A stretch of DNA of 64,000 nt from Hymenobacter lapidiphilus (lineage in GTDB: Bacteria; Bacteroidota; Bacteroidia; Cytophagales; Hymenobacteraceae): positions 62,001 to 126,000 of the forward strand of contig NZ_JABKAU010000002.1 in assembly GCF_013377885.1 (NCBI RefSeq), written 5' to 3'. The translations under genes and the position numbers were made by a program. The notes beneath the pieces were generated by a model that was not told where the DNA came from, did not search any database, and worked only from the letters and a program-made list of their open reading frames with translations. Position 1 is the first letter of the stretch, and every line of letters starts with the position of its first letter. This document shows, piece by piece, positions 59,084 to 60,455 of this stretch.

Positions 59084-59143
59084 AAAGGCCTCACTCAGCT
59101 GAAACAGCCACAAAGATGGTTGTTTCAGCCGGGTGAGGCCTTT
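59084..59143. terminator. Hairpin terminator downstream of the 59184-59444 gene
   Basis: A long imperfect stem. AAAGGCCTCAC at 59084 pairs with GTGAGGCCTTT at 59133-59143, and inner TGAAACA pairs with TGTTTCA. It lies between rnhB and the small hydrophilic gene, both on the minus strand. Confidence 0.8.
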
Positions 59144-59444: not shown

Positions 59445-59574
59445 TATGGGAATGGTGCCGGGCGGAATGTGAACGGCCGGCAGTAGTAGCCTACGCACCA
59501 CTTTGGCGGGAGGTTGGCCCCGGTTGCGCGCCGAAGTCCCAATCGACCCACCTTGGACCAGAAAAAAGAGCAAT

Positions 59575-59724
59575 AAAAAAGCCGCTACCCTAGGTAGCGG
59601 CCTTTTCGGTCATACTGGCTGGCAGCGGTTCATTCATCCACCCTACTAATTGCTGCCATGATGCCAATACTACGCGGTAAGAGCCTTCCTTTCCATAAAC
59701 CTTACCAGCGCTGAATAATTAGTA
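59575..59724 (-). ncRNA. Candidate structured small RNA or attenuating leader
   Basis: On the minus strand a TAnnTTTG element (TACTTTTG, 59735-59728) is followed by about 150 nt ending in an intrinsic terminator (GCCGCTACC, loop TAG, then T tract; 59601-59575). A 10-bp closing stem CCTACTAATT / AATTAGTAGG (59726-59717 with 59651-59642) encloses an inner stem GGTAAG/CTTACC extended by CGC/GCG, and a second small stem-loop. No convincing ORF fits inside. It does not match a known RNA family from memory (not tmRNA, SRP, 6S or RNase P as I know them). The 86-residue gene starts 130 nt further on, so a riboswitch or attenuator leader is an alternative. The predicted start falls within the first bases of the closing stem. 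Confidence 0.45.
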
Positions 59725-59727
59725 GGT

Positions 59728-59735
59728 CAAAAGTA
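59728..59735 (-). promoter_or_regulatory. Predicted -7 element of the candidate small RNA
   Basis: TACTTTTG on the minus strand matches TAnnTTTG exactly. A -33 TTG at 19-20 bp spacing is not seen. Confidence 0.5.
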
Positions 59736-59848
59736 TACGAACGGCGTGGGCCGAATGGATTTTTTGGCCCAACGGAAAGTTTCACCCGCTCAATGGATCT
59801 TTTTACCCGGTGGGCTGTAGGTGCGGTACGCACCTTTTTCTGCCGTCG

Positions 59849-59856
59849 TATCTTTA
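59849..59856 (+). promoter_or_regulatory. Predicted -7 element of the NUDIX gene
   Basis: TATCTTTA, one base off TAnnTTTG, 30 bp before the ATG at 59886. It supports the short start and argues against a longer reading from 59793. Confidence 0.45.
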
Positions 59857-59885
59857 CCCCCTTTCTGCTCCCTCACTTTTCCTCT

Positions 59886-60455
59886 ATGGCCAACCCTGCC
59901 GCTGATTTCGACGAGACGCACAACCCCTGGCAGACGCAGGCCTCCGAAGTAAAGTACCAGAACCCCTGGATCCGGGTGCGTGAGGATCAGGTGATTACAC
60001 CTGGCGGCACGGCCGGCATCTACGGCGTCGTGACGATGAAGAACAAGGCCCTGGGTATTGTGCCGGTCGATGCCGAGGGCAACACCTGGTTGGTAGGCCA
60101 GTACCGCTACCCCTTAAGCGAGTACAGCTGGGAAATTCCGATGGGTGGCGGGCCGGTGGAACTCGACATACTCGAATCGGCCCGGCGCGAGCTACGCGAG
60201 GAAACCGGCCTGCTCGCCCACCGCTGGACCAACATCATGCGCCTGCACACCTCCAACTCGGTAACCGATGAGGAAGGCTTTGTTTTTCTGGCCCAAGAGC
60301 TGGAGCAGGGCGACACCGAGCCCGAAGAAACCGAGGACCTGCGCCTCTGGAAACTCCCGCTGGCCGAAGCCGTGCAGCTGGTTATGGACGGCCGCATAAC
60401 CGACGCCGTAAGCGTGGCCGGCCTGCTGAAAGCCGGCCGCCTGCTAGGCATGTAG
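59886..60455 (+). CDS. NUDIX hydrolase (ADP-ribose pyrophosphatase-like)
   Basis: A 189-residue protein starting MANPAADFDETHNPWQTQAS. The Nudix box is in EIPMGGGPVELDILESARRE with LREETGL (about residues 78-104); REL-REETG is intact. The upstream glutamate appears shifted by one residue relative to the strict Gx5Ex7REUxEExGU pattern. Features such as YQNPWIRVREDQVITPGG and WLVGQYRYPLSEYSWEIP are those of ADP-ribose/NDP-sugar hydrolases. It cleaves nucleoside diphosphates linked to X; the exact substrate is not given. It precedes plsC by about 95 bp. Confidence 0.9.
   Translation: MANPAADFDETHNPWQTQASEVKYQNPWIRVREDQVITPGGTAGIYGVVTMKNKALGIVPVDAEGNTWLVGQYRYPLSEYSWEIPMGGGPVELDILESARRELREETGLLAHRWTNIMRLHTSNSVTDEEGFVFLAQELEQGDTEPEETEDLRLWKLPLAEAVQLVMDGRITDAVSVAGLLKAGRLLGM

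Follow-up and report, generated by a model that had tools for sequence, protein, structure and literature searches.

The 64,000 nucleotides of Hymenobacter lapidiphilus DNA analysed here (the window) very probably contain one member of a family of small regulatory RNAs that is real, runs across Hymenobacter and is so far undescribed, though very probably of a known kind, the small regulatory RNAs. Comparison of genomes supports the gene, its fold, its promoter element, a set of upstream boxes, the existence of paralogues and the spread through the genus (Table 1). I infer that the gene is transcribed, and the product at this locus would very probably be a free RNA.

A preliminary description of the locus had proposed a structured small RNA gene on the minus strand. 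That much of it stands, with the gene running from about 59724 to 59572 and homologues in 95 of 120 genomes of the genus, and the fold it drew does not: other hairpins are conserved, its closing stem is not. Its wider claim, of a free structured RNA of unknown family with a promoter and terminator of its own, is borne out, for a predicted transcript, by the homologues, by compensatory changes, by the conserved promoter element and by the lack of any Rfam family scoring over its cut-off. It was also right that there is no ORF of useful size, none being found inside the RNA in an ORF check. What distinguishes a trans-acting RNA is found here as well: its own promoter element and terminator, and no tie to any one downstream gene.

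Table 1. Features of the RNA gene and its upstream region, in window coordinates
Feature	Position	Strand	Remarks
sRNA gene, about 150 nt	59572..59724	-	start placed from TAnnTTTG and end from the T run; ends inferred, +/- 3 nt
Upstream box A, GCCCACCGGGTAAA	59802..59815	-	21 bp from box B
Upstream box B, ATTGAGCGGGTGAA	59781..59794	-	21 bp from box C
Upstream box C, GTTGGGCCAAAAAA (matrix consensus TTTGTCCAAAAAAA)	59760..59773	-	conserved at -38 of TAnnTTTG
Promoter -7 element, TACTTTTG (TAnnTTTG)	59728..59735	-	at a fixed place in 97/98 copies
Hairpin 1	59672..59711	-	minimum-energy fold; compensatory changes
Loop 1 motif, UGGAAAGGA	59687..59695	-	in 99/99 kept copies; copies kept by core GGAAAGGA
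Hairpin 2	59612..59670	-	minimum-energy fold; compensatory changes; loop 2 within at least 5 pairs in 97/99 copies folded singly
Loop 2 motif, AGUAGGGUGGAUGA (core GGGURGA)	59634..59647	-	GGGT[AG]GA in 90/99 copies
Intrinsic terminator, 15 pairs, then T run	59575..59607	-	stem covaries in homologues

Distribution of the RNA

An initial DNA search gave matches in 10 of 59 genomes (that of the window included), all of one genus and one of them with two loci. A covariance model, R1, was followed by a successor, R2, built from 99 copies, and it is R2 that was used for the census. At E<=1e-7 it finds 124 copies in 95 of the 120 genomes of the genus, the lowest scoring 65.5 bits; 75 genomes have one copy, 12 have two, seven have three and one has four, making 20 of the 95 multicopy. 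At 1e-7 R2 finds nothing in the other 25 genomes. Most of these gaps are not explained by incompleteness, since 21 of the 25 genomes reach at least 90% completeness with no more than 5% contamination. Ninety-nine of the 124 copies were aligned and studied, and these are the copies counted below.

How far does the RNA extend beyond the genus? R1 matched 22 of 148 genomes of the order at E<=0.1, eight of them within the genus, and the loci from this search that were scanned (L046-L061, two of them from the genus) had the motif in place in no case. R2, set against 291 genomes of the order (33 from the genus, 258 from outside), matched 67 of the 258 at E<=0.001, with no score exceeding 43.0 bits; four loci inspected from those 67 genomes (L241-L244) all lacked GGAAAGGA, and the remaining weaker matches outside the genus are taken as matches to the terminator. 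A strict pattern requiring both loop motifs, run across named genomes, returned 42 stretches; all but one are titled Hymenobacter, and the exception comes from an uncultured Bacteroidetes bin. Searches of more than 40 genomes used stricter filters, at which some weak matches are lost. As far as searched, then, the RNA appears specific to Hymenobacter, with nothing convincing outside it. Spread by plasmids or viruses was considered and rejected, the window's copy having no match in plasmids and the two-motif pattern none in viral contigs.

Two hairpins and a terminator

Folded to minimum energy, the whole stretch forms hairpin 1, hairpin 2 and the terminator. From 59728 to 59575 it folds at -58.3 kcal/mol (z = -3.47), a value as low being reached by none of 200 shuffles. 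The shorter stretch bounded by the would-be closing stem, 59728 to 59643, is not unusual (z = -1.05, with 28 of 200 shuffles as low).

Every element named in the preliminary description can be read in the letters: the TAnnTTTG, both arms of a 10-bp closing stem (CCTACTAATT at 59726-59717 and AATTAGTAGG at 59651-59642), the inner stems GGTAAG/CTTACC and CGC/GCG, and the terminator with its T run. The terminator begins nearer than the 75 nt or so it was given, about 34 nt past the closing stem. The closing stem itself goes unformed in the full minimum-energy fold because its 3' arm sits in hairpin 2, and it forms only if the stretch is made to end just after it. Neither is it conserved. All ten pairs are present in only eight of 37 close homologues, and the pairing, in 68.2% of cells, is barely above the 67.7% of shuffles, 35 of 500 of which are as high. 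I therefore reject it as a conserved structure; complete in those eight, it may form as an alternative within the clade to which the window belongs. The check that had been suggested for the fold was whether homologues show covarying pairs, and it is the structure of two hairpins and a terminator that passes it.

For that check an alignment of 37 close copies was made blind to structure, its rows found with R1 and the structure counted being that of its first row. Eleven of the 33 pairs of the two-hairpin and terminator structure have changed on both sides, compared with 3.9 in shuffles, and none of 500 shuffles reaches 11, a test in which related rows can exceed shuffles. The structure is paired in 93.8% of cells (91.2% in shuffles), and structures slid along the same alignment drop to 40-64%. 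A covariation measure that counts further pair types does not rise above the shuffles on this alignment (329 of 500). In the alignment of all 99 copies (97 distinct), 29 of the 33 pairs change on both sides, a count that leans towards the structure since the alignment was fitted to that of R1. Folded one at a time, 97 of the 99 copies place loop 2 in a hairpin separate from hairpin 1, and 72 place loop 1 inside a hairpin loop.

The two loops

Both loops (UGGAAAGGA and GGGURGA) are almost invariant while the stems around them vary. The universal presence of UGGAAAGGA is partly a matter of selection, copies having been retained on its core, GGAAAGGA. The model hits without that core, six of 104, were dropped from the set: two (L126, L130) look to be unrelated, and the other four are additional hits that overlap a true copy at its terminator.

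Loop 2 allows a little more freedom. Where it contains GGGURGA it mostly reads AGUAGGGUGGAU, and a diverged group, 18 of the 99 copies, has GGGGUAGAC, which sits in a small hairpin in the two folds inspected. Three copies read GAGTGGA (GAGUGGA in the RNA) and six have neither form, four of the six reading GGGTGAAT (GGGUGAAU in the RNA).

Could the conservation be that of a protein? GGATGA occurs in 58 of the 99 copies, and a small ORF starting in loop 2 was considered and rejected, its frames shifting between copies. No conserved reading frame was found, frame and length both varying among the 99, and a leader peptide or small protein gene is rejected likewise, no frame being kept across them.

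Relation to known families

Rfam 15 has no match in the window. Twenty-five homologous loci compared with Rfam at E<=1 gave none over its gathering cut-off, the best being ar35 (RF02346) at 39.0 against a cut-off of 45. This model, of an alphaproteobacterial small RNA, resembles the present family in having two hairpins and a terminator. Over the whole model, two diverged copies of the GGGGUAGAC type, L116 and L124, score 39.0 and 35.4 bits, both short of 45, and the scores are helped by the terminator; the GC-rich terminator stem alone gives 16 bits with the ar35 model (on the reverse strand). The ar35 consensus as printed lacks GGAAAGGA, and the window's own copy has no ar35 hit at E<=10. 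The RNA of the signal recognition particle (SRP; RF00169) is rejected too: the only match in the genome, one over the cut-off, sits on another contig, C39.

In the literature searched there was little on regulation by small RNAs in Hymenobacter beyond one review, and a search for small regulatory RNAs in Cytophagales found none. Among the titles listed by broader searches none concerned a Hymenobacter RNA, and among those listed for ar35 none dealt with that RNA, which is not proof that the Hymenobacter RNA is unpublished.

A promoter element and three upstream boxes

The exact TAnnTTTG noted earlier on the minus strand is TACTTTTG, and its place is conserved. The motif by itself would count for little, since the window has 14 instances where 18.4 are expected, not above chance; it is evidence only by virtue of its fixed place in the homologues, where 97 of 98 copies have it upstream of GGAAAGGA at a distance of 38-43 nt.

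Further upstream lie three conserved boxes, A, B and C, at about -80, -59 and -38 of TAnnTTTG and thus 21 bp apart, judged by position-specific conservation in 86 de-duplicated copies (86 of 97 upstream stretches once near duplicates were removed; L134, without an exact TAnnTTTG, was left out). The spacing amounts to two helical turns, and it suggests that an activator binds there.

Do the boxes belong to the RNA or to its neighbours? The 99 copies fall into several settings. In 72 (class A, the window's locus) the RNA has as neighbours a NUDIX gene and a gene homologous to the window's 86-aa gene, with a gene for RNase HII beyond as a rule. The other 27 lie elsewhere, in neighbourhoods that are themselves repeated and lack the 86-aa gene, and there the cassette of promoter, RNA and terminator recurs. 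Six (class B) are beside a carboxypeptidase-regulatory-like gene, five of which have an Xre-like gene as their other neighbour; 12 (class C) are between a gene resembling those for diaminopimelate decarboxylase (a PLP-decarboxylase-like gene) and a glycosyltransferase-like or other large gene; three (class D) are near a LuxR-like gene, the names in classes B to D having been assigned by eye; and six (class E) are in various neighbourhoods.

A matrix for the boxes was made from class A copies only (51 of the 72 after removal of near duplicates) and applied to all classes. In class A, from which the matrix is not independent, the expected position of box A ranks within the top 1% in 63 of 72 copies, that of box B in 67 and that of box C in 71. 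The corresponding counts are 6, 4 and 5 of 6 in class B, 12, 11 and 12 of 12 in class C, 3, 0 and 2 of 3 in class D and 1, 4 and 0 of 5 in class E. The boxes thus recur at paralogous loci outside the matrix set, well in classes B and C and partly in D and E, and therefore accompany the RNA gene rather than the neighbouring NUDIX gene.

For that gene (59793-60455) a start at 59886 is more likely than one at 59793, since the near relatives L002 and L003 open the frame at MANPAADFDETHNPW, and the later start places the boxes in an intergenic region. Between the boxes and this likely start there is a terminator-like hairpin, AGGTGCGGTACGCACCT, with a T run (59819-59835, plus strand).

In the window's own genome the exact pattern of boxes B and C is found at the RNA gene only, and so is box C with TAnnTTTG. 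In a search of 120 genomes for wider use of the boxes, the B and C pattern has 25 matches, as against nine for a control in which the pattern is read backwards, and 21 of the 25 are at copies of the RNA. Of the other four, three lack a TAnnTTTG at the corresponding distance in the sequence inspected and one precedes an ORF. Box C with TAnnTTTG has 90 matches (63 in the control), 49 of them at copies of the RNA as judged by coordinates; the remaining 41 are not above chance.

The one match that precedes an ORF (L190, in genome G099, minus strand, near 1501) has boxes B and C before TTCCTTTG and an ORF starting MLFSMTGFGQARRE, which we take to be YicC-like. The genome has no R2 match. This ORF is perhaps another target of the same candidate activator.

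How the RNA might act

I propose that the RNA acts in trans, most likely through its loops. The TAnnTTTG promoter would drive a free RNA of about 150 nt, its expression probably aided by a candidate activator at the three boxes set 21 bp apart, and the transcript would fold into hairpin 1, hairpin 2 and the terminator. The two purine-rich loops (UGGAAAGGA and GGGURGA) would then serve as seeds for C/U-rich sites in target mRNAs, and pairing near translation starts would alter the expression of those mRNAs. The model predicts that such targets contain sites complementary to the loops, UCCUUUCCA or UCYACCC.

Pairing with mRNAs has, to my mind, an even chance of being the mode of action, and it is favoured over the decoy discussed below. 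It has a precedent in the phylum: FopS and GibS of Bacteroides are multicopy RNAs that act by seed pairing (PMC11697453). These are the nearest published systems, and like the Hymenobacter RNA they are multicopy, mostly intergenic and conserved in short segments; a further likeness is that FopS is transcribed from the phylum's canonical promoter (PMC11697453, PMC7366714). They differ in length, in the place of the seed and in the promoter. FopS is about 65-70 nt long with its R1 seed in the 5' part (PMC11697453, PMC7366714), whereas the Hymenobacter RNA, by its inferred ends, is about 150 nt long with its motifs in two hairpin loops; its 5' end is variable and the loops hold what is conserved. 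In GibS the promoter motif, PM2, places its elements at -10 and -30 relative to the start, compared with boxes at -38, -59 and -80 of TAnnTTTG in Hymenobacter.

Some observations sit less easily with this account. Loop 2 is GGGGUAGAC in 18 of the 99 copies and has neither GGGURGA form in six. The boxes falter in the smaller classes, box B failing in all three copies of class D, and boxes A and C in four and five of the five of class E. As for pairing in the manner of FopS, the protein acting on FopS in Bacteroides is RbpB, of the RRM family. That family (RRM_1) has no match in 12 of 13 genomes of the same genus (G000-G012) and one marginal match in the other. Outside the genus, RRM_1 proteins were matched in three of six genomes belonging to other families within the order.

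Hairpin loops as strongly conserved as these would suit protein binding just as well. In place of pairing, then, two loops rich in GGA or G might sequester an RNA-binding protein, the upstream boxes switching the decoy on. CsrB and RsmZ, which bind and sequester CsrA, are RNAs of this sort. Nearly invariant loops on covarying stems are what a decoy would be expected to have, and the several copies in 20 of 95 genomes and the dedicated boxes suit it too. Against it, CsrA/RsmA has no match in any of 39 relatives, the window's own genome included, the controls being positive in three of 14 genomes (E. coli, B. subtilis and T. maritima). The two loops, moreover, are not copies of one motif, they give only two sites per RNA, and loop 2, in the 18 copies with GGGGUAGAC, has no GGA. 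I regard the decoy as possible, and rather unlikely.

A broader parallel may be drawn with RNAs of the CsrB/RsmZ and Qrr types, which have several hairpins with conserved loops, occur in several copies and have sites for activators upstream. The Hymenobacter RNA shares these traits. It differs in that CsrA has no match among the 39 relatives, in that TAnnTTTG is not a sigma-54 promoter and in that the loops are not one repeated motif. One might imagine a circuit like those of Csr or Qrr assembled from unrelated parts: a multicopy riboregulator with a dedicated three-site activator, its loops either read by an RNA-binding protein or serving as twin seeds. I regard such a circuit as rather unlikely.

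Whichever reading is closer, there is now a genus-wide RNA gene with a fold, a promoter element, candidate control sites and paralogues, and its loops and its boxes would each point to a partner. With CsrA unmatched and RRM proteins mostly missing, whatever reads the loops would bear on RNA control in Bacteroidota.

Other readings fare much worse. It is very improbable that the RNA binds RNA polymerase as a diverged RNA of the 6S type. The slot for one looks open, no 6S RNA being found elsewhere in the genome (RF00013 and RF01685, no match at E<=0.001), an absence not established by a search in which RF01685 had no positive control. A 6S RNA is a single long rod with a central bubble, whereas here there are two separate hairpins and a terminator, in up to four copies per genome, and no Rfam 6S model hits the locus at E<=10.

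There is equally slight reason to think that the RNA binds ribosomes, its purine loops pairing with the anti-Shine-Dalgarno tail of 16S rRNA. AGGAG does occur around loop 2 in 53 of the 99 copies, but it is not conserved: neither the window's own copy nor any of the 18 GGGGUAGAC copies has it. Ribosomes of Bacteroidia, furthermore, are reported to keep that tail sequestered (PMC9976891).

Least credible of all is the alternative offered in the preliminary description, that the RNA is a terminator-type leader which controls the downstream 86-residue gene (59444-59184). That gene does follow on the same strand, with its homologue adjoining the RNA at 72 of 99 copies, but conservation fades beyond the terminator in one homologue alignment, 27 copies lie elsewhere without the gene, and in 15 of these 27 (all 15 of classes C and D) the next downstream ORF, among those of 100 codons or more, lies on the other strand. 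Such a leader is thereby excluded as the general role.

The 86-aa protein itself has no Pfam match at E<=0.01. Between its gene and that for RNase HII, at 59084-59143, is a 27-nt inverted repeat (89% complementary) that looks like the terminator of the 86-aa gene.
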